Source: Niabella sp. (GTDB taxonomy: Bacteria > Bacteroidota > Bacteroidia > Chitinophagales > Chitinophagaceae). From it: a stretch of 64,000 nt of DNA. A program made the position numbers and the translations under genes. The stretch is taken from positions 47,581 to 111,580 of the forward strand of contig JAPUDO010000023.1 in NCBI GenBank assembly GCA_027493055.1. The letters run 5' to 3'. Below, piece after piece: positions 32,732 to 51,650 of this stretch (position 1 is its first letter; each line of letters begins with the position of its first letter). The notes beneath the pieces are model-generated. The model did not search any database. It saw only the letters and a list, made by a program, of their open reading frames with translations, and had not been told where the DNA came from.

Positions 32732-33664
32732 TTAGAATGGGTTGCTATATTCCATATACCTGTTAAACAAATGATGCGCCTGTACATAAGAGCTTTGGGG
32801 GCTCATAAAATGACTGAACTCAAAAGTAATAGCTTTATCATATCCCGCGCGCGCGGCTGCCTGTAATTTCAATAACAGCTTTTCAAATTTAATGGGTAAA
32901 AATTTGATGGGCATATCGCGATCAAAAGTTTCTGCATTTGTCCAGCACTGCATTCCGTATTTATCTGCCAGCTTCTTATTAAGAGAAAAAAAAGCATCCA
33001 GCTCATCATAGTCAATTTGTCCATCCTGAAATGCAACTGCATCTACTGCACCCTGCAATCCGCTGAATATTTCGTTCCACTCTGCTTCGTGCTCCTGTAC
33101 ACTTACATAATCTGCTTTTGTTAGTTCAGCACCTGATGCAAGTACCGCCTTTTTACCATCTATCCATGGTGAGATGAATGTAGGAAGGTTATTGCTTATC
33201 TGTTTACATTGCAGGCCCAATGTTCTGAAAGCTTCTGTAGCGCCAATTGTTTTACGGCTGATCTCTGTACTTAAATACCAGCCTTTAAATGAGCTATACT
33301 GACCATAGCGTTCCCACACTTCTTCAATAACATATTTATTATCATTTATTTCACAGGTAAGATCGCCTGTGTCCCAGTACACGCCGCTATCATATAATCC
33401 AAAATAGAATTGCATTTCATACTTTTCCGCCAGTTGCAGAAAAAGTTCAAGCAAATCAACAGGTGGCTTATAACAGCCTTTTTTGATCAGGTAAGGAGAT
33501 GGATAAGTGATAAACTTTCTATACCCCGACCGGATCATTATAACGGTATCTATACCTGCCTGCTTCATGTACTGGAAATCACGCTCCCATTCTGCTGCGC
33601 TCCAGTTTTGATGCGGAATATCGTGGCTGATCTCATCAATAAAAGTGCCTGTTATTTTCATCAT
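32732..33664 (-). CDS. DUF4434 TIM-barrel protein, putative intracellular glycosidase
   Basis: This 310-residue protein lacks a signal peptide and matches the DUF4434 pattern: ITGTFIDEISHDIPHQNW at the start, DFQYMKQAGIDTVIMIRSGY, GWYLSTEISR and AITFEFSHFMSPQSS at the end. DUF4434 proteins are TIM barrels with glycoside-hydrolase-like active sites but no settled activity; Glu in STEIS and EFSH are candidate catalytic residues. Its ATG directly follows the MFS stop, so translation is coupled. It probably acts on the sugar imported by the MFS carrier; this is inference. Confidence 0.8.
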   Translation of the reverse strand: MMKITGTFIDEISHDIPHQNWSAAEWERDFQYMKQAGIDTVIMIRSGYRKFITYPSPYLIKKGCYKPPVDLLELFLQLAEKYEMQFYFGLYDSGVYWDTGDLTCEINDNKYVIEEVWERYGQYSSFKGWYLSTEISRKTIGATEAFRTLGLQCKQISNNLPTFISPWIDGKKAVLASGAELTKADYVSVQEHEAEWNEIFSGLQGAVDAVAFQDGQIDYDELDAFFSLNKKLADKYGMQCWTNAETFDRDMPIKFLPIKFEKLLLKLQAAARAGYDKAITFEFSHFMSPQSSYVQAHHLFNRYMEYSNPF

Positions 33665-34978
33665 TTATTCTTTAGTCAAATTCATTTCATCCGTATGCGC
33701 TTCTGCTGTTACTTCTTCAGGTTTTCTTAAAGGCACCAGCCAGGTTACTGCAAATGCCGGGATGGTGGCAATAAGCACCCAGATAAAAAATTCTTTATAG
33801 CCCAGGTAATCGCTCAGCATGCCGCTAATCATAGAAGGAATCATAAAACCCAGGTTCATTAACCCGCTGCCAAAAGCGTAGTGGGCCATTTTGTATTTGC
33901 CGGGAGCGATGTTTTGCATCATAAACAGAATAAGGCCCACAAAGCCATAGCCATAGCCAAAATACTCAATAGCCACCGCCGAAGCAATGACGTAGAGATT
34001 GGTGGGTTGTGCAATGGCCAGGAATGCGTATGCAGCAAAAGGGAGGTTAAAAAACGTACACAGGATGAGCAACGTTCTCCGGGTAAGCCCTTTGTTAGAA
34101 ACATAATAACCTGCCACAATAGAACCTATAACGAAGGCAATGGCCCCAAATACACCATACAGCAAACCAATTTCTGAAGTGCTTAAACCCAGGCCTCCCT
34201 GCTGCCGGGCGGCTTTAAAGAACAGGGGCGTAATTTTTATAGCCTGCCCCTCGGCAAAACGATAGAATACAATAAAACAGAGACTGAACCAGATATTTTT
34301 CTTTTGAAAAAAAGTAACAATCACATCTTTTAATGTATCAAATCCTTCTTTTACAGAGTTGGCCTTTTGGGCTTCACCTCCTGACGGCAATACCCTCATA
34401 TTATATAAGCCTAATATAACCATGATGATACCGTATATAAACATTACTACCATCCAGGCATTTTGAATACCAATGCTCTTTTCCAACTGCCCCGCCAGGT
34501 ACACCAGCACACCTCCTGAAAACACTTTAGCTATATTGTAGAAAGCGCCCTGCCAACCTACAAACCTGGCTTGCAGTTTGGGCGTAAGCTCGTTTAAATA
34601 AACACCATCAGCTGCAGTATCGTGGGTAGACCCGCTAAAAGCAATGATGGTTAATATGGCAATAGAAAAAGCAAAGAAGTGATTTAGCTGCAGCGTAAGC
34701 GCCAGCAATCCAAACAGCATCCCTGTAAAGATCTGTGTTGTATAAACAAAAAACTTTTTGGTTTTATACATTTCCAGGAATGGCCCCCAAAGCGGCTTAA
34801 TGGTCCACGGAAGCATGATGAGCGAGGTCCAGAAGGCAATTTGAGTATCAGATATACCCATGTTCTTGTACATGATGGAGCTTGCTCCCGACAGGGCTAC
34901 AAAAGGCAGCCCCATGGCAAACCAGGTAGTGGGTATCCAAAAAATGGGGCTAAGATTTTTATGTTTTGTTTGTGTCAC
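33665..34978 (-). CDS. MFS transporter of the AmpG/PAT type
   Basis: This 437-residue inner-membrane protein has about 12 transmembrane helices. The start PTTWFAMGLPFVALSGASS and the segments AFWTSLIMLPWTIKPLWGP and STHDTAADGVYLNEL parallel the AmpG/PAT family (G-L-P near the N-terminus, L-P-x-x-x-K-x-x-W-x-P, and S-Q-D-I-A-V-D). AmpG imports GlcNAc-anhydroMurNAc muropeptides, but Bacteroidota members vary. It lies between the NagX-like acyltransferase gene (18 bp) and DUF4434 (adjacent). It is the likely inner-membrane entry step of this locus; the substrate is inferred as an amino sugar or its oligomer. Confidence 0.88.
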   Translation of the reverse strand: MTQTKHKNLSPIFWIPTTWFAMGLPFVALSGASSIMYKNMGISDTQIAFWTSLIMLPWTIKPLWGPFLEMYKTKKFFVYTTQIFTGMLFGLLALTLQLNHFFAFSIAILTIIAFSGSTHDTAADGVYLNELTPKLQARFVGWQGAFYNIAKVFSGGVLVYLAGQLEKSIGIQNAWMVVMFIYGIIMVILGLYNMRVLPSGGEAQKANSVKEGFDTLKDVIVTFFQKKNIWFSLCFIVFYRFAEGQAIKITPLFFKAARQQGGLGLSTSEIGLLYGVFGAIAFVIGSIVAGYYVSNKGLTRRTLLILCTFFNLPFAAYAFLAIAQPTNLYVIASAVAIEYFGYGYGFVGLILFMMQNIAPGKYKMAHYAFGSGLMNLGFMIPSMISGMLSDYLGYKEFFIWVLIATIPAFAVTWLVPLRKPEEVTAEAHTDEMNLTKE

Positions 34979-34996
34979 TTTATTGAATGTATTTGA

Positions 34997-36382
34997 TCAG
35001 GTTTTCCAGAAGAATTTAATACGTGTAAAAGATACAGAAACCAGGGCAACAAGCCCGGTGAATATAATTCCCCTGGCAAAGCCGGTAAAAGCGCTGGTAT
35101 TCATTGCATCTAAAAAATTTGAAAGATTTGTAATCTTAAGCAGAGGAACAAGCAACAGGTTTCCTGCAGTATAGGCAATCATTGGATTCTTACCATTATC
35201 CGCCAGGAAACGGTTGACTCTTTTAAAGTAGCCTGATTCTTCAATTAGGCTAAAAGATAGTAAAGTAAGGAATGATAAACCTGAGCAAACAAAATAATAG
35301 CTGTATGTAGAATAGTCTTTTTTAATGCCGCCTTCATAAGCCTCAAAAAACAAACCCAGCAATAACAGGTACACGCCTGCGCTCACCATTCTTTTTATTA
35401 GCTTATGTTGCTTTATGCTTTTAGCCAGCCACACCAAACCTGCACACCCCACCAGGTTGAGCAATAAATTCACTTCCAGAAAGCGGGTAAAAAGCCCCCA
35501 CAGGTTTATAAAAACAAGAGCGCCTGCAATAACAGCAATAAGCAGCAATACTTTCTTTGAAACTGCCTCCGGATGCTCATTTTTACGTTCTTCCAAAAAC
35601 CATTCGCCTGCAAATGTTCCGGGAATAACAATGAACAGGTATTTAAGATAGTAGAACTTATAGCACCAGCCGGCCGGCGACCAATCAAAGATGAGCTGAT
35701 TAATGCTGCCCCCTTCTTTCGATGCCAAAAATACAGCCATCACAAAAGGGAGTATAGCTATGCGTGCTAAAGGGTACTTGCGGGTGCAATACCAGGCCAG
35801 GCCGCCAAAAAAGGCCATATTAGCCAGTACAATAATAATAATATCGCTTTGAGCTAAACTAAAATCGCCATAAGCAAAAGGATACACACATAAAAAAACA
35901 AGAGATAGTACAATGCCTGCTACCTTTAGTATAATGGCTGTCTTAGACCCTACAAACCGTGTCCAGTTACCGTAAATAAGAAATAAACATCCGAAACAGG
36001 CAATGGAAATCAGCTGTGTAAACATGCCCGGTGCTTTTCCCATTACCCAGGCTCGGGCATGAAAAGTAAAAATGGCAAACAATACCAAAAGTGCCATACG
36101 CTTAAACAGTTGCAGAAAAATCTTATGGAAAGGCTGTTCTTCAGCTTTTTTATGCAACGCCAAAGGAATAGCAGCGCCCATAGAAAACAGGAAGAAGGGA
36201 AATACCAGGTCTACCCAAGTAATACCTGGCAAATCAGGATTAAATATATATGCAGGGGGTGGTGTTTGGGCATGAAATGTCCAGGCAGGCATTACATTGC
36301 TGAAAGCAATGCTGCCCGAGAGCACCATACACAATATGGCCAGCCCTCTAAAAGCATCAAGACTGTCGAAACGTTTATTCAT
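34997..36382 (-). CDS. DUF5009/NagX-like membrane acyltransferase
   Basis: This 461-residue membrane protein begins RFDSLDAFRGLAILCMVLSG, the mark of the heparan-alpha-glucosaminide N-acetyltransferase-like family (COG4299, NagX), and continues with GITWVDLVFPFFLFSMGAAI. About 11-12 hydrophobic helices follow, ending with NPMIAYTAGNLLLVPLLK. Family members are thought to acetylate amino sugars across the membrane, and nagX occurs in GlcNAc-utilisation regulons of other bacteria. It lies between the FAD oxidoreductase and the AmpG-like carrier in one operon. Acetylating de-N-acetylated sugars before import is a fitting but unproven role. Confidence 0.85.
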   Translation of the reverse strand: MNKRFDSLDAFRGLAILCMVLSGSIAFSNVMPAWTFHAQTPPPAYIFNPDLPGITWVDLVFPFFLFSMGAAIPLALHKKAEEQPFHKIFLQLFKRMALLVLFAIFTFHARAWVMGKAPGMFTQLISIACFGCLFLIYGNWTRFVGSKTAIILKVAGIVLSLVFLCVYPFAYGDFSLAQSDIIIIVLANMAFFGGLAWYCTRKYPLARIAILPFVMAVFLASKEGGSINQLIFDWSPAGWCYKFYYLKYLFIVIPGTFAGEWFLEERKNEHPEAVSKKVLLLIAVIAGALVFINLWGLFTRFLEVNLLLNLVGCAGLVWLAKSIKQHKLIKRMVSAGVYLLLLGLFFEAYEGGIKKDYSTYSYYFVCSGLSFLTLLSFSLIEESGYFKRVNRFLADNGKNPMIAYTAGNLLLVPLLKITNLSNFLDAMNTSAFTGFARGIIFTGLVALVSVSFTRIKFFWKT

Positions 36383-36442
36383 AACCGGATCTGACCTTTT
36401 GGATTACATTTTCCTATTAATTATTGACAGGCATTTGCCTGG

Positions 36443-38305
36443 TCATATTTTTATTTTTCCTGTAAAGTCAATTGCTGTATTAAACGGATCCAGGAACCGG
36501 TCCAGCACATAGGCTGTCATGCTTCTTGTCAATATGCTGTTGGCCGTTAAACCGGGAAACTCATTTTGCTCCAGGTAAGAAAGAATTTGCCCGGCGCTTA
36601 CCTCTTTTTTACCGATAGCTTTGATTGCTCTTGCTAAAAAGTCCGCGGTTACCAGGTTGCCCGAAGGATGCAGCTCTTCAAACGGCGGGTAAAAGTCTTT
36701 TAAGCCGTTTACCAGGTCCCATTCACTAACAGGAAGCTGCGGATAGAACCAGGTTTGGTTAGCCCATTTATAAGACAGGCCTGTGCCTTTAAGAATCCCT
36801 GTGGCGCCAATTTTCTGGATTACTTTAAATGAGGCATCACCCGGCTTTACATCTATAAAAGGCATCAGGTAGGCATTATTTTCCAAAAGTGCTTTTTGAA
36901 CAGCCCTGATGCTCACATTAGCCGGATCCGTATTACCAAGAAGGGCCGTTGCAGCCAACGCTCCTGCTGCCTGCCCTACACCCAAAACCACCGGCTGCAG
37001 ACGGCTGGCGCCCGCTACTATATTAGTTACACTAATGCTTTTCTCTGCAACAATCAAACCTTCACCATCTGCAGGTATCAAAGCACCCAGGGGAATATTG
37101 TATGAAGGCACTTTAATTTTTACAAAATCTATCTGCGGGGCCTCAGGATTTTTAAGGTGATGGTGATCTATGGTATAATCTCCTACTGCAACACCGGTCC
37201 TGTACAATGCTGTTTTTTGTGTGTAGGGCGAAGTAACATCGTTTAAGGTTAGAGTTACCTGTCCCTTCAACCGCCTGGATTCCCTGTGATAAGGAATCAT
37301 TGGCAAACGGTCGGCAGTTGGAAACTCATCATCAGCTATGCCCAGATTTTTGAACCCTAATTTTGTCTGCAGGTGATAGATAAAACGCAGGCTGTGCAGT
37401 TTTGCTTTTTTAAGCGCCTCCTTGCGTTCGGTATCTGTCATTTCAATAATATTCAGGTAAAGATCATTACCGCATTTGGGCCAGTTGATCATGTATTTAT
37501 TGTTAGGCAGCCTGCCATAGGTGATCATCTGGTTACAATTTATTTTTGGTGTGTTATCATGCGATGCCGGGTCTGCAACATCGCAGCAGCAGGAAAACTC
37601 ATCAGGATCGTATCCTTCAGGTTTGGGGATTGTCTTGTCGGCACCAGGCCCAAAATCTTTCAGCACTACTACATAAGTCAGATCCTGGATAATACTGTTT
37701 GCTTTTTCCGGCGCAAAGCTTTCCCCGGTTTCAAAGCGGCTATCCATACCTACACGGTAAGGGATATGCAGCGCGGCCATTACATCACCCAGTTCCGTAG
37801 CATCTATAACTATTTTGGCTTCTACACTTTGTTTTTTGCCTTTGCTGCTGATTTCCGCCTTCCACAGTTTGCCCTCTTTACGGATGCTTTTCAACACGCT
37901 TTTATACCAGATAGCCAGGTTATGATGCCGGGCCATTGTTTTTAGAATTGTATTTCCTGCCGAGGGCTCAAAAAGTGTATTGCTTACCCAGCCCGTTTCT
38001 ACCGCTTTCGGACCGCCGTAATAATCATACAGGTGTTGCCTGAACTCGCCCCAAAGACCGGAAGGCAGGTTATGGTTACCGTCAATAGCCGAAACCCCCG
38101 CAGCAGTAAGCATTCCACCCAACCACTCTGTTTCTTCAACAATCAGTGTTTTTACGCCCATCCGTGCTGCCTGAATACCCGCAGTAGTTCCACTGGCGCC
38201 TCCTCCTATAATTAAGATATCGGTTTTATAGCTTACCTGTGCTGATGTTTGGCAGCATGTTAGTAAAAGGCCGTAAACCAGAAGCGGAATGAATTTTATA
38301 CCCAT
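36443..38305 (-). CDS. Secreted FAD-dependent oxidoreductase with C-terminal SLH-like repeats
   Basis: From the ATG at 38305 the protein has 620 residues. A signal peptide (FIPLLVYGLLLTCCQTSAQ) is followed by an FAD Rossmann motif, Gly34 to Gly39 in ILIIGGGASGTTAG, and the FAD_oxidored (PF12831) continuation with VIDATELGDVMAAL and a late ARLQPVVLGVGQAAGALA motif. A Cys triplet (EFSCCCDVADP) is notable. Residues about 483-609 resemble two S-layer-homology repeats (FIDVKPGDASF..IGATGILKG; NSILTRSMTAYVLDRF). A TTG at 38353 could extend it, but the ATG fits the signal peptide. It is first in the operon and divergent from ROK. Substrate unknown, presumably a sugar. Confidence 0.87.
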   Translation of the reverse strand: MGIKFIPLLVYGLLLTCCQTSAQVSYKTDILIIGGGASGTTAGIQAARMGVKTLIVEETEWLGGMLTAAGVSAIDGNHNLPSGLWGEFRQHLYDYYGGPKAVETGWVSNTLFEPSAGNTILKTMARHHNLAIWYKSVLKSIRKEGKLWKAEISSKGKKQSVEAKIVIDATELGDVMAALHIPYRVGMDSRFETGESFAPEKANSIIQDLTYVVVLKDFGPGADKTIPKPEGYDPDEFSCCCDVADPASHDNTPKINCNQMITYGRLPNNKYMINWPKCGNDLYLNIIEMTDTERKEALKKAKLHSLRFIYHLQTKLGFKNLGIADDEFPTADRLPMIPYHRESRRLKGQVTLTLNDVTSPYTQKTALYRTGVAVGDYTIDHHHLKNPEAPQIDFVKIKVPSYNIPLGALIPADGEGLIVAEKSISVTNIVAGASRLQPVVLGVGQAAGALAATALLGNTDPANVSIRAVQKALLENNAYLMPFIDVKPGDASFKVIQKIGATGILKGTGLSYKWANQTWFYPQLPVSEWDLVNGLKDFYPPFEELHPSGNLVTADFLARAIKAIGKKEVSAGQILSYLEQNEFPGLTANSILTRSMTAYVLDRFLDPFNTAIDFTGKIKI

Positions 38306-38419
38306 GCTGTTTATTTGCTCTAAAATGTAAGCAGCGCCTGTACCCGGTAACAATTGTCCTCAACATCATATACAAGCCCAACGTTATAATTATATCCGAT
38401 GTAAATATAAACTATATTA

Positions 38420-38443
38420 TTAATTAATTTTAATAATTAAAAT
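38420..38443. promoter_or_regulatory. Candidate ROK operator: overlapping AT-rich palindromes
   Basis: Two overlapping inverted repeats lie in the 253-bp space between the FAD oxidoreductase and ROK genes: TTAATTA-N7-TAATTAA (38420-38440) and the perfect ATTTTAAT-A-ATTAAAAT (38427-38443). AT-rich palindromes of this kind are bound by NagC/XylR-type ROK repressors. A near -7 box for the FAD operon (TATATTTA, minus strand, 38409-38402) lies about 10 bp away, so a bound repressor would cover that promoter. The region is very AT-rich, so chance must be allowed for. Confidence 0.45.
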
Positions 38444-38528
38444 GATTTTTTTAATTATTTTTCTTATATAAGCGCAGGTATATTTTACCTTTACATAAAC
38501 ATTCCACATAGCAGAATCCTATATGTGC

Positions 38529-38536
38529 TATTTTTG
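38529..38536 (+). promoter_or_regulatory. -7 promoter box TATTTTTG of the ROK gene
   Basis: The sequence TATTTTTG matches the Bacteroidota -7 consensus TAnnTTTG exactly and ends 22 bp before the ATG, giving a short leader. No good -33 TTTG was seen at the expected distance. Confidence 0.5.
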
Positions 38537-38558
38537 ATTTTTAAAATTTATTAAAAAA

Positions 38559-39773
38559 ATGACGTTTTTTGCCGATTTAAGTAATGAAAACACCTCGGGA
38601 GTTGCTTATAAGAATATAACATTAAAGAAAGCGATACTAGCCTATTTCAGCAAAAACGGGAACAGCACTATTGCCGAACTATGCGGTGAACTGGCTCTGA
38701 GCGCGCCCAAAATCAACAGCATCCTGAATGAAATGATTGCCGAAGGGCTGGTACGTGACTACGGGAAGCTGCAATCCAAAGGCGGCAGGAAACCTAATAT
38801 ATACGGCCTGGTGATGGAGTCTGCCTACTTCCTGGGAGTGGATGTAAAAAACGACCATGTAAATATCGGCCTTACCGATCTGCAAAAAAACCTGATACAT
38901 GTAAAATCATACATCCCTTATCATTTACATAACAGTAAAGAATCATTGGACGAACTCTGTAAAATCATTAACCACTTCATCAAGGAAGGGCCTGTGAAGC
39001 GGGAAAAAATTTTAGGAGCAGGACTAAATCTATCAGGACGTATTAATTATAAAACAGGTTACAGCTACAGCTTTTTTCATTTTAATGAAGAGCCGCTCAG
39101 CAGGGTTATAGGAAAAAATATCGGCCTGCCTATTTTCCTGGAAAACGATTCAAGAGCGATGGCCTTTGGCGAATTTTCGGCTGGAGTGGTTCATGAAGAA
39201 GAAAATGTGCTTTTCCTGAATATAGACTATGGTATTGGCGTTGGCATTATGATTAACAGCCAGGTTTACTATGGAAAATCAGGCTTTGCCGGTGAATTTG
39301 GCCATATACCTTTTTTCGACAATGAAATCATTTGCAACTGTGGTAAAAAGGGCTGTCTTGAAACCGAGGTTTCGGGATGGGCGCTGGTGCGAAAGTTTAA
39401 AGAAAAACTTACCGAAGGCTCTACTTCTATTTTATCCAGCACTCCTGCAGATAAAATTAAACTGGGCGACATCATTAATGCGGCTATTAACGATGATGTT
39501 TTAGCCATTGAACTGGTGGCCGAAGTAGGGGAAAAACTGGGCAGGGGAATAGCCGTGCTCATCAATATGTTTAACCCTGAAATGGTAATACTGGGAGGAA
39601 GCCTGGCCAAAACAGGCGAGTATATCAGCCTGCCTGTCAAAAGCGCTTTAAACAAGTACTCGCTTACTTTAGTGAATAACGATACGCAGCTAAAAATGTC
39701 CAAACTTGGCGAAGAGGCCGGGGTAATAGGCGCCTGCCTGCTGGTTCGAAACCGGCTGCTGGGGCTGGCTTAA
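38559..39773 (+). CDS. ROK-family transcriptional regulator (NagC/XylR type)
   Basis: This 404-residue protein has an N-terminal winged helix (about 20-80, TIAELCGELALSAPKINSIL) fused to a ROK domain (about 90-400). The zinc site is complete: His249 in GEFGHIPFF and Cys259, Cys261, Cys266 in CNCGKKGCLE. The sugar-site ENDSRA (Asp197) is kept, but the ATP-binding DxGGT is replaced by DVKNDHVN, as in repressors rather than kinases. It is divergent from the FAD/NagX/MFS operon and convergent with the GlcNAc-epimerase/SusCD operon, so it probably controls both. An amino sugar or its phosphate is the expected ligand. Confidence 0.92.
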   Translation: MTFFADLSNENTSGVAYKNITLKKAILAYFSKNGNSTIAELCGELALSAPKINSILNEMIAEGLVRDYGKLQSKGGRKPNIYGLVMESAYFLGVDVKNDHVNIGLTDLQKNLIHVKSYIPYHLHNSKESLDELCKIINHFIKEGPVKREKILGAGLNLSGRINYKTGYSYSFFHFNEEPLSRVIGKNIGLPIFLENDSRAMAFGEFSAGVVHEEENVLFLNIDYGIGVGIMINSQVYYGKSGFAGEFGHIPFFDNEIICNCGKKGCLETEVSGWALVRKFKEKLTEGSTSILSSTPADKIKLGDIINAAINDDVLAIELVAEVGEKLGRGIAVLINMFNPEMVILGGSLAKTGEYISLPVKSALNKYSLTLVNNDTQLKMSKLGEEAGVIGACLLVRNRLLGLA

Positions 39774-39840
39774 TATCTTAACGGATGACCCCTGTTTTTT
39801 CATTATGCGACATTTAGAACATCCTAAACTCACGTTATAG

Positions 39841-41022
39841 TTACAAATCAACCGGAACAAAAATCAATGGCGTTGGCAGGCACGATGCACCTGGAGGTGA
39901 GTATGTGAGTTTTATATCCTGTACCTCTTTGGAAGGATCGGGTTGAAACACCTGTATCAATATAGCATCCGGAGCGGCTCTAACACGTAACTCTTCAGAC
40001 GGCAACTGCACAACCCCTTCTTTAAACTTACCCTTGCTTACTACCATTGTATTGGCCATACCCCCGCACCATTGATTATCTCCTGAACGCGAGTTCCAGG
40101 TAATCAATGCCAGTCCCTTGCCATCCGTACTCTTCCATTTCATGTCAATATGATACATGACACCGTAGTTGCCTGCATTTTGAATTACTTTACCTGTAGA
40201 CCCTTCTGTTCCTACAATCCAGGGATCAAGTTTTCCATCGGCAACAACTAAATGTTTCACTTCGCCATCAGTTCTTATGGTGTCACTTACTTTTACCAGG
40301 TAATTGGAAACACCAAATAAGCCCCTACCGGCATTTATTCCCTTAGGAGGATGAACTGATTTAATTCTTTTTAAAGCAGTAATACCACTGGTTCTCGTAT
40401 CAGTTTGTATTACGCTGATCTGCCCGGGCTGATCAACAAGAAACTCATAAAACCCATGCACCAGCTCATCGTATTTTACGATGTTTTTTTCAAGCTGGGG
40501 ATCAAGCGGTATTGCTTCGCCAGGTTTGATCGTATAAACATATTTTACAGGCTGATCCATTAAATAGTCTCTCAAACCATTCTTTCCTGCAAGAAAATAA
40601 TTAGTGGTTGGCTTTTGTGAAGCGTAGCGCAGCATTTGTAATCTCATTGGCGTATTCCCCAGGTTCTTTATTACCACTGTTATTTTTCTTTCCATTTGCC
40701 GGGGCTCTTTTACGCCATTTACATTATACAAATAAAACCGCACTGTTCCCGGCTGAACGGTCTCCTGCAATGCAATAGCCTCAGGTACCCTTATATATTC
40801 AGGATCATCTGAAATAATAAACTGCGGTCCAGGTGATACAATTTTCTGATACGGTATCAACGGAAGCTTCTCTGTAAGAAAATTTTCCAGCTTCACAATT
40901 GAGCCCTGTTTAGCCGTAGTTAGCGCCTGCCGGATCTCGGGAGTAACTTTTTGGGCAAGCAGAAAGGTGGCAGGTAGCATAAAAAGCAGCGATAACAATA
41001 CATTTTTCTTGTTCATGAACAT
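39841..41022 (-). CDS. Uncharacterised secreted protein, last gene of the epimerase/SusCD operon
   Basis: This 393-residue protein has a signal peptide (LLSLLFMLPATFLLAQ) and no family I recognise. It is beta-rich: the central part (about 90-130) reads like an immunoglobulin-like sandwich (TVRFYLYNVNG, ERKITVVIKNLGNTPMRLQM), followed by FYEFLVDQPGQISVIQT, and by a C-terminal GNYGVMYHIDMKWKSTDGKG and LRVRAAPDAILIQVFQPDP. It could bind a glycan or cell-surface polymer. It follows the SGNH esterase gene by 62 bp on the same strand and is convergent with ROK. ATGs at 41022 and 41016 are both possible. Confidence 0.6.
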   Translation of the reverse strand: MFMNKKNVLLSLLFMLPATFLLAQKVTPEIRQALTTAKQGSIVKLENFLTEKLPLIPYQKIVSPGPQFIISDDPEYIRVPEAIALQETVQPGTVRFYLYNVNGVKEPRQMERKITVVIKNLGNTPMRLQMLRYASQKPTTNYFLAGKNGLRDYLMDQPVKYVYTIKPGEAIPLDPQLEKNIVKYDELVHGFYEFLVDQPGQISVIQTDTRTSGITALKRIKSVHPPKGINAGRGLFGVSNYLVKVSDTIRTDGEVKHLVVADGKLDPWIVGTEGSTGKVIQNAGNYGVMYHIDMKWKSTDGKGLALITWNSRSGDNQWCGGMANTMVVSKGKFKEGVVQLPSEELRVRAAPDAILIQVFQPDPSKEVQDIKLTYSPPGASCLPTPLIFVPVDL

Positions 41023-41084
41023 TAATTTTTTAATACTATTTTTCAGAAAACAACCGGTGATCCTATTTGTAAAAGGATCTGCAC

Positions 41085-41765
41085 TTATAAATATTTTTTA
41101 TCTTTTAAGTATTGAACCCAGCGTATGTACGCATCAGTATTTACATGAATGCCATCCTGCGTAAATTCTTTTTTCAGCACATACCCGTCTGCCAACACCT
41201 CTTTTACATCAACATATACCAACCCATATTTACCGGCGATCTTCCGGATAGCAGTGTTCAGATCACGTATAGCTTTTTCACAGTTTAAAAGATAATCGTA
41301 CTTTAATACTGTTTCGTTAAGAGGTAATACACTTTGCAGGTATATCCTGGTTTTCGGACTTACTTTTTGTATTATCTGAATGACAGACTCGTAATTGGCC
41401 AGTGTCCACGATGCGGGCAGTCCTCTCCCAATATCATTGATACCCATCATCAAAAATATTTTTTTCGGCTTCGACAATACAACATCTGCAATCCGGGCTT
41501 TCATTCCAAAAGTGTTATCACCTCCGATGCCCCTGTTGCCCACTTTATATTTGCGGCCCACCAACTCCTGCCAGGGCCCGTTTTCCGTAATACTATTGCC
41601 AAAGAAAATAACATCATATTTTACATCCTTCAGCCTTTGATACAGCTTTTCTCTTGAAACGTAATACCAGTTATCGAAAGTGCTGTCTGTTGATACTTTT
41701 TTCTCCTGGGAAATAGCCGGAAGTCCATAAAGGGCCGCCATAAAAAACAGAACCATATACCTCAT
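41085..41765 (-). CDS. SGNH/GDSL esterase, copy 1
   Basis: This secreted hydrolase of 226 residues has a signal peptide (FFMAALYGLPAISQ). SGNH blocks are visible: FFGNSITENGPW (block I serine in GNSIT), NRGIGGDNTFG (block II glycine), LMMGINDIGRG (block III asparagine in GIND) and the C-terminal QDGIHVNTDAY (Asp/His dyad). Members remove O-acetyl or other acyl groups from sugars. The gene follows its paralogue by 1 bp. Within this PUL it is likely to deacetylate the glycan; NanS-like or peptidoglycan O-acetylesterase roles are both possible. Confidence 0.9.
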   Translation of the reverse strand: MRYMVLFFMAALYGLPAISQEKKVSTDSTFDNWYYVSREKLYQRLKDVKYDVIFFGNSITENGPWQELVGRKYKVGNRGIGGDNTFGMKARIADVVLSKPKKIFLMMGINDIGRGLPASWTLANYESVIQIIQKVSPKTRIYLQSVLPLNETVLKYDYLLNCEKAIRDLNTAIRKIAGKYGLVYVDVKEVLADGYVLKKEFTQDGIHVNTDAYIRWVQYLKDKKYL

Positions 41766-41766
41766 A

Positions 41767-42453: not shown

Positions 42454-42482
42454 TTCCGTTATTACTCTTACAGGTTTCTTAG

Positions 42483-43862: not shown

Positions 43863-43883
43863 ATTTATCTATTCAATTTATAA

Positions 43884-45545
43884 TTACATATCAATACAAT
43901 CAAACTGAACACAGGCCACCTGACCGTTAGTAAACATAAAATATAAATACATATAATACCCGTTATCGGAAACCTGCAGGGCTACATCACCGGTACCATT
44001 GGCGTTTTGCCCACCATTATCTTTTCCTCCATATATACCAATAGGCGCTTTCCAGATTGCAGAACCGAAAGTAGTTGTTGAGCTTACATCATACAGGTAC
44101 ACTGCATCATCGCTACCCCATGTAAATGAGTTGATAGAATTATGAACCGCATAAGGAGCATTATTAAAGACCGCATAGTCCACCGCATTCTGGATCCAGT
44201 TTGAGCTGATTTCTGGTCCCAGGGCTTTTACAGTGTTAGTGGCCCCGTTGATCCAGGCAAATTTGTATGGAGCCGCATAGTACGATACAAAATAATCGCT
44301 TGATGCATCTGTGGCACTGGTCTGAACAATATCGGCATTATTGTTCCATGCCCCGCCAAGACCGGTTATGGTAACTATTTCAGGTGTTTGCGACTGAAGA
44401 GCGCCGTTCACTACTTTCCACCTGGCAAATTTATTCCCGGTACCAAGTATAGCTGCGGTAATAATTGCGTTTCCATCAAGATTACCCTTAACTGATAATT
44501 TCCGGCCGACAGCCTGTCCGTCATTCCACTCAATATATTGTTGGGGCGAGCCTGCAACCCCTTTTATACGCCATACTTTAAACGCACCTGCATTAGGAGC
44601 TAAATTACATACAAGAATGTTATTATTTTCATCCGCCGTATGGTAGAAGTTGGTAAGATTGCCTGCTATGCTGCCTAAATTTACTGACCCGGCAATTTGC
44701 CCCGTTTTCCTATCCAGGTAAATGCTATTCAGCGTCCTGGTATTTATTACCAGATAATCCTTTGTTGCCGCTATACCTGTTGTAAGGTTAAGTGTACTGA
44801 TACCTAGTTCTGAGTTTAGCTTTTTAGCCCAGAGCACTTTTGCGCTTCCCGAACGCAAACCAAAAGTAGTTTTTGCCGGCACAGCTTTTTTAACGGTGTA
44901 CACATTTTTGGTAACCCCATCCTGCGCAGTAACCGTAAGCTGTACGTCAGCATCATAATTTAAAGGCGTTTGTGCCGGGTCGGGACTTATTGTGGCGCCA
45001 TGAGAAATAGACACATTTGCCAGCACATTGCCTATTGATTCAATTGAAATAAGAGAAATTGTTTTACCGGCTTCATCTACAATCCCGTTCAACCCTAAAG
45101 ATGAAAGATCAAAATTGGTTATAAGGGCAGCCCGGCTTTTCCTGATTTCGGCCACTATTTTATATTTCCTTACCGTTTTTGCCTGATCTGTGATCTCAAT
45201 GTAGTTTTCCTTTGTAAGATCAAGATATAGCAAGGCGGGCGATATGATAACATTATCATCCAGGTTGGCCTTTACCCTTACATTTGCCAGGTTAGCCGTA
45301 GTTAATACGTTATTGGATGTTCGGGGATAGTTGTAAGGAAACACAATAGTGATTACCCTGTTTTGATGATCAATCTCGCTTTCGAATAAGTTCTCTGTAC
45401 TCTCATCATTCATAAAAGAAGCTGTAATACTGTTGATCCCTTCGCGCGATGTAGAAGGCGTCAGGTCTTCAACTTTCTGACACCCCAGTATTCCGGCCAG
45501 GAAAGAAAGAAAAATGCAATATGTAAAAAATATGTTGATTTTCAT
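43884..45545 (-). CDS. DUF5018-domain lipoprotein, putative surface glycan-binding protein
   Basis: From the ATG at 45545 this is a 553-residue lipoprotein with lipobox ILGC (Cys22). The N-terminal third has tandem bacterial-Ig/DUF5018-type repeats (IVFPYNYPRTSNN, YIEITDQAKTVRKYKIVAE, LTVTAQDGVTKNVYTVKK). The C-terminal two-thirds looks like a beta-propeller (NLTTGIAATKDYLVINTRTL, YLDRKTGQIAGSV, NADIVQTSATDASSDYFVSY). It sits after SusD, the usual place of surface glycan-binding proteins. An ATG at 45575 overlaps the SusD stop by 10 bp but would precede the signal peptide by ten residues. Confidence 0.8.
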   Translation of the reverse strand: MKINIFFTYCIFLSFLAGILGCQKVEDLTPSTSREGINSITASFMNDESTENLFESEIDHQNRVITIVFPYNYPRTSNNVLTTANLANVRVKANLDDNVIISPALLYLDLTKENYIEITDQAKTVRKYKIVAEIRKSRAALITNFDLSSLGLNGIVDEAGKTISLISIESIGNVLANVSISHGATISPDPAQTPLNYDADVQLTVTAQDGVTKNVYTVKKAVPAKTTFGLRSGSAKVLWAKKLNSELGISTLNLTTGIAATKDYLVINTRTLNSIYLDRKTGQIAGSVNLGSIAGNLTNFYHTADENNNILVCNLAPNAGAFKVWRIKGVAGSPQQYIEWNDGQAVGRKLSVKGNLDGNAIITAAILGTGNKFARWKVVNGALQSQTPEIVTITGLGGAWNNNADIVQTSATDASSDYFVSYYAAPYKFAWINGATNTVKALGPEISSNWIQNAVDYAVFNNAPYAVHNSINSFTWGSDDAVYLYDVSSTTTFGSAIWKAPIGIYGGKDNGGQNANGTGDVALQVSDNGYYMYLYFMFTNGQVACVQFDCIDM

Positions 45546-45565
45546 ATACCTGCTTTTTAAAGATT

Positions 45566-47188
45566 TTACTTCCATTGGTCATGTTGTTGTATAAGTGAGT
45601 TGTTTTCCAGCTCACTTAGCGGAACGGGGAGGACATAAGTTCTTTCCGAAAATTTCCTGTCCTGATAATCCACGTCAATGTATTCATAATTGTCGCCGGT
45701 TATTTTAAACCCGTGAGCCCTGTAATTATTATACTCAATATGAGCCAGCTTCCAGCGCCTCATATCCCAGAACAAATGCCCTTCATAAGCCAGTTCTACC
45801 TTTCGTTCGTTCCTGTAGTCTCTGAAAAACTCTTCACCGCCCGAAGATTTAGCCGGCAGCCCTACCCTGGCTCTCACTAAATTCATAGCCGCTCTTGCTT
45901 CCTCCATCTTATTTAACCTGTAAGCAGCCTCGGCTTTATTCAGCAGTATTTCAGCGTAGCGGAGCTCAACCCAGGTTTGGGTGCTTGGTTTACCGTTTAC
46001 ATCTGTCAGGCTTTCGTCCAGCAGCTTTCTCAGGTAATACCCGGTTGTTGTATATCCATAAGTATATGGCTGAGCCCTGTAAGCCATAAACATCCCATAG
46101 GTTCCATTAACCGAGTTTTGCATTACGTTACCCTTCCATGTTGATCCGGGATAAATTATCGTAGCCTTAAAACGGGGCTCCAGTTGCTCGTATGGCGGGC
46201 GGGTAGCAGTTGCTGAATGGTAAGGCGTCCAGTCAAATTTTGCACCATCTGCTTTCTCATAGCTTTCAACCATTTCCTGCGTTGGCGTTCCCAATCCTCC
46301 AAAATTATATCCGTCACTTAACGGGACATAGTCTTTATCAAAACTATGATTAGGCCCCGTAGTATTATACTGGAACTCCAATACAGACTCATTGTTGTTT
46401 CCCCTGAAGGATTGCGCATAGTTATTAACCAGTGAATAAAGCCCTGACTTCACAACCGAATCTGCTGCTGCATAGGCCGATTCCCATCTTTGAGCATAGA
46501 GCATGGCCCTGGATTTTAATCCAAACGCCGCATACCGGGTTACTCTTCCTTTGCCTGCTGTTGGCCAGGCTGCAGGTAAATGGGCAATGGCATAGTCCAG
46601 GTCAGACTCTATAAGATTCCAGGTTTCCTGTTCGGAGCTCATGGCTATATCTTTTTTCATGCTCTCCAAATCTGTATAAATGATAGCGCCCCCATGTCTT
46701 TTGGCTACCTGGAAATACATAAATGCCCTGAAAAACCTGATCTGTGCCTCCCAAAGCGCATTTTGCTGTTCGGTAAAGCCTGAGTATTTTTTCATGGAAG
46801 ATAAAAACTCGTTTAAACGCCTGATCTTGTTATACCCATCACCCCAGTTGTCATAAAAGCAACTTGCCGGTGTTACAATAGCGGGGTCAAAAACATAGTT
46901 GTTGGGATGCCCGGCTTTGTGGCCCAGGGCATAAGAGCCGTATTTAAAAGTGCTGGTAAGACTTTCGGTAAGGCTTCCCTGGAACTGCTGCGTTCCAAAC
47001 TGCCCATACTGATGCAGATACGTATAAAACCCGTTAACATAGAGATCTACATTGGTATTGTTTTCCCAAATGATCTTGTCTGTTAACTGATCGGTAGGAG
47101 TTAAATCAAGCCACTTTTTACACCCGGCCAAACTCACCAACGCTGCAAACGATAACAGGATTATTGATTTTATATTTTTCATATTCAA
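45566..47188 (-). CDS. SusD/RagB-family lipoprotein (third pair)
   Basis: This 540-residue lipoprotein has lipobox LAGC (Cys23) followed by KKWLDLTPTDQLTDK. SusD helices are seen in WEAQIRFFRAFMYFQVAKRH and LRYAEILLNKAEAAYRLNK, and near the C-terminus YRNERKVELAYEGHLFWDMR. The gap to its SusC is 4 bp, so the two are tightly coupled. It supplies glycan capture for the amino-sugar-type locus. Confidence 0.95.
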   Translation of the reverse strand: MNMKNIKSIILLSFAALVSLAGCKKWLDLTPTDQLTDKIIWENNTNVDLYVNGFYTYLHQYGQFGTQQFQGSLTESLTSTFKYGSYALGHKAGHPNNYVFDPAIVTPASCFYDNWGDGYNKIRRLNEFLSSMKKYSGFTEQQNALWEAQIRFFRAFMYFQVAKRHGGAIIYTDLESMKKDIAMSSEQETWNLIESDLDYAIAHLPAAWPTAGKGRVTRYAAFGLKSRAMLYAQRWESAYAAADSVVKSGLYSLVNNYAQSFRGNNNESVLEFQYNTTGPNHSFDKDYVPLSDGYNFGGLGTPTQEMVESYEKADGAKFDWTPYHSATATRPPYEQLEPRFKATIIYPGSTWKGNVMQNSVNGTYGMFMAYRAQPYTYGYTTTGYYLRKLLDESLTDVNGKPSTQTWVELRYAEILLNKAEAAYRLNKMEEARAAMNLVRARVGLPAKSSGGEEFFRDYRNERKVELAYEGHLFWDMRRWKLAHIEYNNYRAHGFKITGDNYEYIDVDYQDRKFSERTYVLPVPLSELENNSLIQQHDQWK

Positions 47189-47192
47189 TAAT

Positions 47193-50100
47193 TTATAGAG
47201 TTAAGTTAACACCAAAAGAAAAGGTCTTCTGTTGCGGATAGTACCCGTTATTGACACCAGGCTGTTCGGGGTCGATATTATATTTGGTAAGCTCGCTGAA
47301 CGTAAGAATGTTGGAGCCCTGAACAAACAACCTGAAACTTTCAATCCCTGCCTTCTTTACTATACGCTGGGGAAGTGTATATCCCAGTTGAAATGATTTT
47401 AACCTGAGATAATCGCCCGGACGATACCAGAATGTAGATGCATAGGCGTTATTGCTGCTTACGTTCACCAGTGAGAGCCTGGGAAACTCGGCATTAGTGT
47501 TTTCCGGCGTCCATGAGTTCTCTGCCAGGAAACGTGGCGAATTGCCTCCATGATAGAAAAGCTTTGTAAATGCGGTATTGTCCATCACTCCTTCAGAACC
47601 GCTGGATGTGTATACCCCGGTTAAAGCCACATCTCTTCCCAATCCCGCCTGGAACAAAATATCAAAATCAAAACCTTTCCAGTCCCCGTTAAAATTTAAA
47701 GAAGTTTGATACTTCGGGTACGGGCTTTTTCCCACGTAAGCCATATCCTGCGCATAGGTTATCTTTCCATCACCGTTAAGATCCCTGTACTTTATATAGC
47801 CCGGCAAAACTTTTGCTCCTTCTACAAGCGGAGAGCCATTTATATCATCCTGTGATTGGAATAAACCTTCTGAAATAAAGCCCAGCTGGGCGCCTACTTC
47901 TTTCCCGGTAAGCTTCCTGTAATCAGGTGTGTTTTCAGAATCGCCTGCATAGTACAGCCATTTACGTTTTACATAAGAGCCTACCAGCCTGAGGCCGTAC
48001 CGGAAATCCCCGATCTTATTGTTATGGCTTATTGTAAAATCAAGGCCGCGATAGTCTATCTTATTCACGTTGGCTGTGGTGAAATAGTACCCTCCCATTG
48101 AAGGCGGATAGGCCCCTGCAATAGCGCCAAGCAGATCATATTGATATTTGTAAAAAGCATCAAACTCAATACCTAATAAACCTTTCCAGGCAATTAAGTC
48201 TATACCCCCGTTGTACGTTAATGCTTTGGCCCAGGTAAGATTGGGATTGCCTAAAGTAGCAGAATATACCATGCTCTGACTGGCGCCGCCAATCATTACC
48301 TGGTTTGAGGCCAGGGTCATCAGGTTCAGATACTGGAAAGCGTTAACTGCAGAAGTAGCGGTTTTACCAAGACCTCCCCTGAGCTTAAGCGTATTGATCC
48401 ATCCCGATTCAAACCACTCCTCATTATCTATTCTCCAGCCCAAAGATGCTGCAGGTAAATTGATCCAGCGCGAACCGTTCATGCCACTAAACAAATAGCT
48501 TCCATCTCTCCTTATGGATACTTCTGCCAGGTAACGCCCGTCAAAATCATAGTTAAGCCTTCCTACATAACCTATCAGCCTGGACTGGCCGCTGGATCCG
48601 CTTAAGGAAGGAATGCGCTCGCTTCCGTTGCCTGAAAGATTGGTTATTTTACTCAACTCATCCAGTTCAAGAAAGTCCAGGCCATACCCTGTAACGCCCA
48701 GCGTATTGCTAAATGCGTTCCTGGTTTCTGCCAGTCCAAGAAAAGTGATCCTGTGTTTATCAAAAGCACGGTCAAAGTTGATACTGGACTGGGTTACTAC
48801 GTTTGTTGAATTATAGGCCGATTCAGTTAAAGAAGTATTACCCGAGTTATCCATAAAAACCCGGTAGTCTATTGTCTGGGTTGTTGCATTGGGCAGGCTG
48901 GCCAGCATTGTTTTATAAGGTATTGCCAGCGATTTGGCAAACTGGAACAGTTTGTCATAAGCACCCATAAACTTAAATGACAGCCCTTTCAGCCATGGTG
49001 CATTGTACACCAATGTCAGGTTTGATTGTATATAGTTATTATTTGATCTTGCGTAGCCTGATTCATTAATAGCGGCTAGCGGACTAACCGGTGAAGAAGC
49101 GGTGGGTGTAGAAGTATAATACTCAACTCCGTCTACTGTAACTCTTTCAGGGAAATAAGGTATTGCCCTGACGGCCTGCTGGGGTATATTGTGCCAGTCA
49201 TTAGGGTTGGCCGAATACCGGGGATTATCTCTGTTTTCCACGCGCCCGCCAATGCCCAGTATCATTTTTATGCTGTTGGATATATTGGCATCAATATTTG
49301 CACGCAGGTTGTACCGGTCATAATTGAATTTATCTACGTTACCCTTTTGCGAAAAAGCTCCCACTGAAGTAAAAAACTTCACTTTTTCGTTACCGCCGGA
49401 TGCGCTTATATTATTGTGCACGGTATTTCCTTCATCAAAAACTTTTTTGTACCAGTTTGTATTACCCCAGCCATCAACGCCATCAATCATTTTCTGTATG
49501 ATATCGGCGTTAAAAACAGGCTGGTCTCCGTCCAGAACCCTGGCCTGGTTATAATAATAAGCATAGCCCGGGGCATCTAACCATTCTATTTGCCGTGCAT
49601 TCTGGCTGGTACCGTATGACCCGCTATAGGATATGTTCAGCTTTCCGCCGGCACCCTTTTTCGTAGTTACAATTACTACAGAGGTTGCGTTTAATCCATA
49701 TATAGATGCGGATGTAGCGTCTTTCAAAACAGAAATAGATTCAATTTCGTTAGGATCAATCTCATTAATGCTGCGCACCACACCGTCTACAATATAAGTG
49801 GCGCCTTCCCCACGCACCAGTAATGACGCCGCATCGGCACCAGGCTGACCAGACTGCTGCAGCATGGTTACACCCGCAACCCTGGACCCCAGAACATTTG
49901 TAATGCCCACAGGAGGCACTTTGAGTATTTCTTTATCGGTTATGGAAGAAACGGCTCCGGTGATACTTCCCCTCCTTTGCGTGCCGTACCCTACCACCAC
50001 TACTTCCGACATGGACTGCCCGCTTTCGGACAAGGTTACAGTTACATTTCCTGATGTTACAGTAACTTCCGATGGTGCATAGTTTATACTTGTGATCTGC

Positions 50101-50303
50101 AATACATCACCAATTGCTGCACGAATCGAAAAAATACCCTGCTCATCGCTCATTGTCCCTGTGGATGCTCCTTTCAAAACTATTGAGGCTCCGGCAACCG
50201 GCTTACCTTCCATGTTTTGTACGTGTCCCTTTATCTGGGTCTGCTGTGCCCATGCAGGGAGGCAACAGCAAATGACAAGAAACGAAAGAATTGATCTTCT
50301 CAT
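47193..50303 (-). CDS. SusC-type TonB-dependent transporter (third pair)
   Basis: This 1036-residue outer-membrane importer has a signal peptide (1-20, VICCCLPAWAQ), a carboxypeptidase-regulatory-like domain (IKGHVQNMEGKPVAGASIV), the transition SEVVVVGYGTQRRGSITGAV, and a plug with TYIVDGVVRS and SASIYGLNATSVVIVTTKKG. The barrel ends FSFGVNLTL. The plug is slightly short: the usual longer variable loop before the VDGV motif is missing (RGEGATYIVDGVV). The gene is 127 bp after the GlcNAc epimerase gene in the same direction and is probably co-transcribed with it. Confidence 0.95.
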   Translation of the reverse strand: MRRSILSFLVICCCLPAWAQQTQIKGHVQNMEGKPVAGASIVLKGASTGTMSDEQGIFSIRAAIGDVLQITSINYAPSEVTVTSGNVTVTLSESGQSMSEVVVVGYGTQRRGSITGAVSSITDKEILKVPPVGITNVLGSRVAGVTMLQQSGQPGADAASLLVRGEGATYIVDGVVRSINEIDPNEIESISVLKDATSASIYGLNATSVVIVTTKKGAGGKLNISYSGSYGTSQNARQIEWLDAPGYAYYYNQARVLDGDQPVFNADIIQKMIDGVDGWGNTNWYKKVFDEGNTVHNNISASGGNEKVKFFTSVGAFSQKGNVDKFNYDRYNLRANIDANISNSIKMILGIGGRVENRDNPRYSANPNDWHNIPQQAVRAIPYFPERVTVDGVEYYTSTPTASSPVSPLAAINESGYARSNNNYIQSNLTLVYNAPWLKGLSFKFMGAYDKLFQFAKSLAIPYKTMLASLPNATTQTIDYRVFMDNSGNTSLTESAYNSTNVVTQSSINFDRAFDKHRITFLGLAETRNAFSNTLGVTGYGLDFLELDELSKITNLSGNGSERIPSLSGSSGQSRLIGYVGRLNYDFDGRYLAEVSIRRDGSYLFSGMNGSRWINLPAASLGWRIDNEEWFESGWINTLKLRGGLGKTATSAVNAFQYLNLMTLASNQVMIGGASQSMVYSATLGNPNLTWAKALTYNGGIDLIAWKGLLGIEFDAFYKYQYDLLGAIAGAYPPSMGGYYFTTANVNKIDYRGLDFTISHNNKIGDFRYGLRLVGSYVKRKWLYYAGDSENTPDYRKLTGKEVGAQLGFISEGLFQSQDDINGSPLVEGAKVLPGYIKYRDLNGDGKITYAQDMAYVGKSPYPKYQTSLNFNGDWKGFDFDILFQAGLGRDVALTGVYTSSGSEGVMDNTAFTKLFYHGGNSPRFLAENSWTPENTNAEFPRLSLVNVSSNNAYASTFWYRPGDYLRLKSFQLGYTLPQRIVKKAGIESFRLFVQGSNILTFSELTKYNIDPEQPGVNNGYYPQQKTFSFGVNLTL

Positions 50304-50430
50304 AACCTTGTGTTTAATTTAAAAGTTTATTTTAAAGTATCAGTGATGACCTGTTTTCCCTAAATGAAATAAATAGGTTCTACATTTACATATGGCATTA
50401 TGCACGAACCTGTCTGAAATATGTTATGTT

Positions 50431-51585
50431 TTATTGCTCCAATGTTTTCCAAACCTGGTACAGGGCCCGTGGTACATGAAAACATCCTTTCCACTTCCCG
50501 CCTTTCAGAGGCAGCAGCACTTCGCCTCTCCTGTTAAGATATCCAAACCATTCTTTATAATCCGGATCTTTAAAATGCTGCCAGGTATAATCATGTACTT
50601 TTGTAAACCATTCAGCACATTGCTCATTTCCTGTAAACCTGTATCCTTTAGCTAAAGCAACCAATGCTTCAACATGTACCCACCATAATTTCTGGTCCCA
50701 TTCCAATTGCTGGGGCGGCTTTTGTTTAATATCAAGAAAATAGAATATGCCGCCGAAATCATTGTCCCATCCATATTCAAGCATGCGCAGCATTCTTTCA
50801 CAAGCCGTTTTTACCAGTTCATCATTGCCAATTCGTTTTCCCAGATCCATAATAAACCACATGGCTTCAATAGCATGACCGGGATTGATCAGCCGGCCTT
50901 CAAAAGAGTCAACAAAAGAACCGTCAGGTGCAATATTCTCTAATACCAATCCTGTATCGGGCTGATAAAAATCATCCATCACTTCCTGTATGATCAATGG
51001 AACAAACTCATTCACTTTCTCTTTTCCCAGCAAAGTCTCCATTTCAAGCGTCAGGTTACATAGTATCATAGGTAAACTGAAGTTCTTTAGAGGGCGTGTG
51101 CCGGGGTAGGTTTTATTATATTGCCCCTTCCAGTTGTCCTGCCGGTTCAAAATGTTATCAAAAGTTTCAATGGCAATTTTTTTATATCGCTCTTCCGGGA
51201 GGGCTTTGTACAGTTCGGAAAAGGCCATGGCCGCAAAACAATCGCTGAAAATATTATAAGGCTGCACCAGGGGTTTCCCATCGGCGGTTAATGAAAAGTA
51301 CCAGTTCCCTTTTTCATCACGACCAAATTTTTCCATGAACGCGGCTCCTTGTAATGCCATTTTCAACCATTCCTGCCGGGGCTCAATATGATTATAAAAG
51401 AAGCTGAAACACCACACCTGGCGGCCCTGCAACCACATAAACTTATCGGTATCAAACACCTGCCCATTGCGGTCAAGGCAGGTAAAATAGCCTCCGTTAA
51501 CAGTATCTATACTATGCTCCGTCCAGAAAGGGAGCACGTTATCCAGCAGCTCTGTTTTGTAAACAGGAGCATAATCTACCAGCAT
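50431..51585 (-). CDS. N-acylglucosamine 2-epimerase (AGE/RnBP family)
   Basis: This cytoplasmic (alpha/alpha)6-barrel enzyme interconverts GlcNAc and ManNAc. Signature segments are [50 protein letters not shown] and [18 protein letters not shown], which supply the active-site histidines. These fit the renin-binding-protein branch better than cellobiose 2-epimerases, but mannose or glucose epimerases of the superfamily are not excluded. The start [16 protein letters not shown] at 51585 matches the family N-terminus and leaves a normal leader after the -7 box; an ATG at 51624 would leave almost none. It is the first gene of the SusCD operon. Confidence 0.9.
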
Positions 51586-51647: not shown

Positions 51648-51650
51648 AAT

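Follow-up and report, generated by a model that had tools for sequence, protein, structure and literature searches.

The window described here is a stretch of 64,000 nucleotides from Niabella sp. (Bacteroidota, Chitinophagaceae; GenBank assembly GCA_027493055.1, contig JAPUDO010000023.1, positions 47,581 to 111,580 of the forward strand), taken from a genome of 131 contigs and 5.75 Mb. Positions 32,732 to 51,585 of the window hold 13 genes, among them those of an N-acylglucosamine 2-epimerase (AGE), a DUF4434 protein, a SusC/SusD pair and a ROK regulator, and this locus probably takes up and degrades a polymer that contains amino sugars but is no sialic acid glycan. The preferred explanation, with a probability of roughly 0.44, is a single ROK-controlled uptake and degradation unit, which would act on an O-acylated amino-sugar glycan, likeliest one of bacterial envelopes, and obtain N-acetylmannosamine (ManNAc) from it without sialic acid. 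Some dozen genes form a conserved set that is apparently switched by one sugar sensor.

Gene order and regulation

The families of the locus occur together in other Bacteroidota beyond chance, as emerged from the search for the same gene set that a preliminary description of the window had proposed. Sixty-nine loci around DUF4434 were compared with 40 control stretches, all taken from 28 of the genomes that carry these loci. Counted at any identity, AGE was found beside DUF4434 in 34 of the loci, DUF5009 in 25, SGNH esterases in 21, SSF transporters in 19 and the FAD enzyme in 18, and none of these in any control. The neighbor counts are lower bounds, since many loci stop at contig ends; neighbors were labeled by BLAST against representatives with a coverage limit, and the genomes are related.

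In relatives the families of both minus-strand operons of the window stand in a single long run beside ROK. In one of them (G770, locus L273 followed by L274; L, G and C numbers denote loci, genomes and contigs) UNK393 and ROK share one strand, and the other strand carries AGE, FAD enzyme, SusC, SusD, DUF5018, GHL10, metallophosphoesterase, DUF5009, SGNH, SSF transporter, SGNH, SGNH, a 308-residue protein and DUF4434. The order in G018 (L137, L170) is like that of G770, with the addition of a DUF5017-sized protein and a GH20-like protein. A palindromic candidate operator, TAATAAA-N4-TTTATTA, was derived from 50 stretches of relatives that lie between divergent ROK and AGE genes, the window being excluded. 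Across the 64 kb, its nine highest-scoring separate sites all fall in the AGE and FAD enzyme/ROK promoters. None of 500 column-permuted motifs reached both real scores and 86 of the 500 placed their top three sites in the same promoters; because these promoters are AT-rich, the motif counts as moderate evidence. Since relatives hold a single run beside ROK and the palindrome scores highest at both promoters, the two minus-strand operons and the ROK gene look like one unit, which agrees with their earlier grouping into one locus.

SusC, SusD and DUF5018 of the window are 69, 72 and 65% identical to those of G576 (L182), a member of another family, and SusC is just 27-38% identical to the own-family loci of the G770-type comparison. 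Among the 80 top matches, out of at least 594, those closest to the window AGE come from Ferruginibacter and other Chitinophagaceae. Because the SusC, SusD and DUF5018 proteins are closest to another family and AGE to its own, the SusCD cassette (43,884-50,303) was likely transferred horizontally into a native AGE-ROK frame.

The epimerase and sialic acid

AGE clears the equivalog cut-off of NF052547 and matches solved N-acetylglucosamine 2-epimerases, among them PDB 6f04 with 567 bits (for 2gz6 see Table 1). A fusion of NagB with a PIG-L deacetylase lies beside DUF4434 in 12 of the 69 loci and in none of the 40 controls, and this recurrence supports an amino-sugar route; in the Niabella genome the corresponding gene is on contig C63, adjoining GH20. 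Amino-sugar catabolism, as proposed in the preliminary description, thus holds as a prediction from the epimerase score and the neighbors in relatives. The statement made there that this is not a standard nan locus is likewise borne out. In the set of AGE loci, which are the 80 top ones among at least 594 matches, DUF4434 occurs in 22 (one of them, L102, just 28% identical), NanA or sialidase in 11, and both together in none; "NanA" here is the best BLAST match to the DHDPS-family protein of a nan-type locus. The loci with NanA or sialidase belong mostly to Prolixibacteraceae and their kin, with sialidase, GH20, NanA and NanM.

With a nan locus taken as AGE together with NanA and/or sialidase, the window locus is not one: Pfam found neither enzyme in the locus or in 36 of the 37 open reading frames of at least 200 residues in the window, the 1073-residue frame at 19,425 being excepted. 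Beside DUF4434, NanA (1/69 against 1/40) and sialidase (none in either) are no commoner than in controls. A separate nan-type locus, containing a divergent AGE of its own, lies elsewhere in the genome (L135, contig C119, 43,000-62,999). L135 also contains SusC-like, NanA, NanM, MFS (major facilitator superfamily), sialidase, SASA-type esterase and GH20 genes.

A sialic acid locus that has lost NanA, or one that acts on a modified sialic acid, NanA being provided by another part of the genome, would fit the resemblance of SGNH esterase 2 to the sialate O-acetylesterase 6njc, the presence of AGE in nan-type loci as well, and locus L146, in which NanA and another AGE lie within the same strand run. 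It is disfavored by the separate locus L135, by NanA being no commoner beside DUF4434 than in controls and by the 80 AGE loci, none of which pairs DUF4434 with NanA or sialidase, and is regarded as very improbable. Given that separate locus and those AGE loci, the window AGE very probably serves something different from sialic acid.

DUF4434 and its partners

Strong matches to DUF4434 are 46-81% identical across the phylum. Within the family group of the Niabella genome (f1), L271 has a DUF4434 identical to that of L060, a Hydrotalea record assigned to Chitinophagaceae, in keeping with a probable placement of the genome in that family. From 52 genomes with any DUF4434 match, 41 were used to examine its link with AGE, leaving out the Niabella genome itself, weak, broken and near-duplicate cases and a few others. 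AGE more than 55% identical is held by 36 of the 41, and in 31 of the 32 genomes with both genes on one contig these lie at most 21 kb apart. In other classes DUF4434 directly adjoins AGE in 17 of the 30 loci listed. DUF4434 is the constant partner and the transporter varies, being an AmpG-like MFS protein, an SSF protein or a sugar porter.

The kind of transporter follows the leader of DUF4434. Among 92 DUF4434 proteins, those led by a twin-arginine-like (Tat) signal have a sugar porter as typed neighbor (19/19), and leaderless ones an AmpG-like MFS or SSF importer (39/39); left untyped were the transporters of 25 leaderless proteins, of 5 with a Tat leader and of 3 with some other extension, and one protein was unplaced. 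In a tree of the 92 proteins the Tat-led ones fall into two clades, one of which is a paralogue whose genomes mostly carry the other as well. In L138 and L182 the gene order is FAD enzyme, DUF4434, sugar porter, AGE, as would be expected if DUF4434 frees the sugar used by AGE.

Clan GH-A glycosidases have two catalytic glutamates, on strands 4 and 7 of a TIM barrel. Glu134 and Glu245 of DUF4434 are invariant in 22 aligned rows, one of which is only 24% identical, and would fit such an enzyme. The sole solved relative found by a profile search of PDB was 4h41, all others being at chance level; nothing in this analysis supports the label "putative alpha-L-fucosidase" of that entry. As part of the preferred explanation, and with the same reserve, DUF4434 is predicted to be a glycosidase that releases a hexosamine, probably ManNAc, for use by AGE.

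GHL10 and peptidoglycan

The preliminary description had named peptidoglycan glycan strands as a possible polymer. GHL10 would then cut denuded strands as a lytic transglycosylase, SGNH esterases would strip muramic 6-O-acetyl groups, DUF5009 would repair de-N-acetylated glucosamine, the AmpG-like MFS importer would bring in GlcNAc-anhydroMurNAc and DUF4434 would split it. The best PDB match of the window GHL10 profile is Clostridioides difficile Cwp19 (5oq2, E 1.7e-19), whose GHL10 domain has lytic transglycosylase activity according to PMC6016235. The structure paper proposes Asp196 for the active site and offers Arg132 as a guess (PMC5765458). The window protein keeps neither, having R225 and valine at the aligned positions (numbering taken as chain numbering plus 5).

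The Asp196 site gives a D-Y or D-R pair in 41 of 44 window-type proteins, 3 being unmatched. A second GHL10 type, given the working label "DigH-like" after the GHL10 peptidoglycan enzyme DigH, has GDDR in all 12 examples listed and, in 31 of 35 cases, the D-R pair. By these residues the window GHL10 falls in a different subfamily, so that a link to peptidoglycan is not simply transferable to it.

The DigH-like type itself lies beside DUF4434 in 18 of the 69 loci and in 1 of the 40 controls, and MurQ exceeds its cut-off in all 31 DUF4434 genomes tested compared with 18 of 26 without a DUF4434 match (two more of the 26 fall just under the cut-off; G004, G005, G011, G014 and G015, which no DUF4434 search covered, were left out), a modest point. 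Together they leave room for a muramic acid link. For genes specific to peptidoglycan there is no clear enrichment beside DUF4434: NamZ occurs in 2 loci and 1 control, Amidase_3 in 1 and 0, and LD-carboxypeptidase S66 in 3 and 0, the few lineages concerned including one genus with S66 (L139, L140, L189) and one locus with NamZ and Amidase_3 (L142). In the window locus itself Pfam detects neither an amidase nor NamZ nor GH3. Peptidoglycan use also gives AGE no role, and an AGE without NanA calls for another source of ManNAc. The neighbor counts and the unconserved GHL10 residues thus lower this reading and MurQ raises it slightly; peptidoglycan is a possible but weak candidate and, as the substrate of the window locus, rather unlikely.

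Phosphodiesterases and mannosidases

NAGPA lies beside DUF4434 in 12 of the 69 loci and in none of the 40 controls. The slot between GHL10 and DUF5009 is occupied by NAGPA in L145 and L165 and by a metallophosphoesterase in L167, L273 and L088. In Gram-positive bacteria the wall polymer is linked to peptidoglycan through ManNAc-GlcNAc-1-phosphate on muramic acid. Because NAGPA is enriched and shares its slot with the metallophosphoesterase, the unit might digest this link: in relatives one of the two enzymes would cut the phosphodiester, GHL10 would open the wall, and DUF4434 would be a first N-acetylmannosaminidase family, feeding AGE. Pfam found neither phosphodiesterase in the window locus and the three NAGPA genes of the genome are all on other contigs; this more specific proposal is considered improbable. 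A literature search on NAGPA and teichoic acids yielded nothing useful.

Two alpha-mannosidase families recur beside DUF4434, GH38 (16/69 against 0/40) and GH92 (9/69 against 2/40). GH38 near DUF4434, mostly with AGE, was observed in distant Bacteroidota in L141, L142, L150, L191, L192 and L195, and further in L198-L202, L205, L207 and L211-L213. The mannosidase counts speak for eukaryotic glycoprotein glycans (N-glycans or similar) as the substrate, which other loci would trim before DUF4434 splits the core disaccharide; GH20 in L169 and L170 and the in vivo induction of the Bacteroides thetaiotaomicron operon BT0453-BT0449, given in PMC6989115, point the same way. So does the position of this operon near a sialidase gene. 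Such a substrate leaves AGE unexplained, the window locus has no Pfam match to a mannosidase, a hexosaminidase or GH18/GH85, and the locus is kept in genomes of the same family of only 2.0-2.5 Mb (G152, G859, G878, G629). It is judged unlikely.

Proposed pathway

In the preferred explanation, use of an envelope glycan yielding ManNAc, the family roles suggest that the surface lipoproteins DUF5018, SusD and GHL10-DUF4985 would bind and cut the polymer and SusC would take the fragments in. In the periplasm SGNH esterases would strip O-acyl groups, DUF5009 would re-acetylate free amino groups and the FAD enzyme would oxidize the fragment at some position. The AmpG-like MFS protein may then bring a short glycoside inside, where cytosolic DUF4434 would hydrolyze it to ManNAc, the step closest to the comparative data. 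AGE, by its family, is predicted to convert ManNAc to GlcNAc, which could enter the NagB/deacetylase route encoded elsewhere in the genome. In keeping with the shared motif, ROK would keep both operons off until a sugar binds.

Several observations weigh against this pathway. In 5 of the 41 DUF4434 genomes the sole AGE is 35-38% identical. The Tat-led proteins form two clades, so that the split by leader and transporter amounts to about two events and its 58 proteins are not independent; the Fisher values of the 69 to 40 comparison likewise ignore kinship. ManNAc is proposed as the released sugar on account of AGE. The NanA gene in L146, the MurQ distribution, the lack of NAGPA and metallophosphoesterase in the window locus, and the recurrence of GH38 and GH92, which the pathway does not need, also belong here.

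Where an AGE has no sialic acid to draw on, bacterial glycans are suggested as the origin of its ManNAc, and we know of no described uptake locus for ManNAc of this kind. DUF4434, DUF5009, DUF5018, DUF4985 and UNK393 would each acquire a role open to testing.

Genes and other features

The features of the locus are listed in Table 1. All 13 genes are open frames at these positions, and the AGE end at 51,585 matches an ATG 13 codons within the mechanically called frame. The gene list and families of the preliminary description are upheld by the frames and profile scores, including the two SGNH esterases. AmpG is indeed the best NCBIfam model of the importer, at a score well under its cut-off, and GHL10 is found by Pfam as a divergent match.

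Table 1. Features of the locus, with family calls from Pfam and NCBIfam profile scores
Feature	Position in window	Strand	Evidence and remarks
DUF4434 enzyme, no leader	32732..33664	-	PF14488 286 bits; PDB 4h41 548 bits; proposed cytosolic glycosidase
MFS importer, AmpG-like	33665..34978	-	MFS_1 74 bits; TIGR00901 119 bits, cut-off 350
DUF5009 (HGSNAT/NagX-like) membrane acyltransferase	34997..36382	-	PF16401 377 bits
FAD-dependent oxidoreductase (FAD_oxidored), with leader	36443..38353	-	PF12831 327 bits; start likely near 38305
Candidate ROK operators, FAD enzyme/ROK divergent promoter	38405..38556		38418, 13.2 bits; 38539, 10.1 bits
ROK regulator	38559..39773	+	PF00480 190 bits; winged helix PF13412; NagC model 191 bits, cut-off 650
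UNK393, 393 residues, with leader, no family	39841..41022	-	homologues 55-62% identical
SGNH esterase 1 (GDSL/SGNH), with leader	41085..41765	-	PF13472 92 bits
SGNH esterase 2, with leader	41767..42453	-	PF13472 93 bits; PDB 6njc sialate O-acetylesterase 122 bits
Divergent GHL10 + DUF4985 lipoprotein	42483..43862	-	GHL10 48 bits, DUF4985 120 bits; proposed polymer-cutting enzyme
DUF5018 lipoprotein	43884..45575	-	PF16410 366 bits; proposed surface glycan-binding protein
SusD-type lipoprotein	45566..47188	-	PF07980 179 bits
SusC-type TonB-dependent transporter	47193..50303	-	PF13715 (carboxypeptidase-like), PF07715 (plug)
AGE, N-acylglucosamine 2-epimerase	50431..51585	-	GlcNAc_2-epim 266 bits; NF052547 682 bits, cut-off 600; PDB 2gz6 573 bits
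Candidate ROK operators upstream of AGE	51647..51691		51647, 15.8 bits; 51674, 15.7 bits; top two of the window

SusC adjoins SusD, with further lipoproteins and enzymes, as in a polysaccharide utilization locus, and the uptake by the SusCD route suggested earlier is in line with this pair. Lipoprotein-like and other leaders were judged by eye. UNK393 has no Pfam family and no PDB match; its homologues in relatives lie beside ROK or inside the long run. PDB matches of the FAD enzyme are partial and confined to the nucleotide-binding part; its C-terminal part (36,443-36,900), beyond the Pfam domain, looks by eye like S-layer-homology repeats. A DUF5009/HGSNAT acetyltransferase would acetylate terminal glucosamine, and the window protein has a Pfam match to DUF5009. 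According to PMC12423673 DUF5009 has no experimentally confirmed function, and a literature search by the names DUF4434, DUF5009, DUF4985 and DUF5018 found no mention of DUF4434 or DUF4985.

Elsewhere in the window, positions 724-22,646 hold a separate locus with SusD, alpha-L-fucosidase, GH95, two chondroitinase-B-like proteins, a GH88-like protein, alginate lyase, GH31, GH2 and an AraC regulator, together with the SusC-sized 1073-residue frame at 19,425; it looks like a locus for fucose and uronate glycans. An IS200-like Y1 transposase gene of 200 residues (26,229-26,831) lies near a second SusCD pair. Between AGE and an S9 peptidase gene (51,965-52,105) a stretch ending CTTTTTAGTCAGCCCC or CTTTTAGTCAGCCCC was seen by eye in two copies, the first with a complementary arm.

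Of 73 numbered DUF4434 loci, 69 entered the neighborhood count: L181 and L184, which are extension pieces, and L171 were taken out and then L206 by a filter; in L171 and L206 DUF4434 is apparently masked by an opposite-strand frame. The short duplicates L151, L152, L193 and L194 were excluded from the counts.

Comparison with known systems

Bacteroidota nan loci share AGE, a SusCD pair, an SGNH esterase and an MFS protein with the window locus, which lacks NanA, sialidase and NanM and has ROK, DUF4434, the FAD enzyme, DUF5009 and GHL10 instead. The importer resembles the muropeptide permease AmpG in being an MFS protein with AmpG as its best model, and differs in its low score (Table 1). GHL10 resembles Cwp19 by its profile, and differs in lacking Asp196 and Arg132 and in its extra DUF4985 domain.

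The nearest known relatives are in B. thetaiotaomicron. The protein of PDB 4h41 (BT_0435) matches the window DUF4434 (Table 1). The substrate of the operon BT0453-BT0449 is reported as unknown in PMC6989115. The region BT0446-BT0454, as listed in PMC10434189, comprises DUF5009, two family 10 glycosyl hydrolases, a calcineurin-like phosphoesterase, SusD, a TonB receptor and a sugar porter, the same families by name as in the window; relatives of the locus genes appear there in an iron-response table. It differs from the window in having the sugar porter in place of the AmpG-like MFS protein and, by analogy with L182, its DUF4434 is probably Tat-led. The gene order of BT0446-BT0454 matches that of the Bacteroidia loci L146, L179 and L182.

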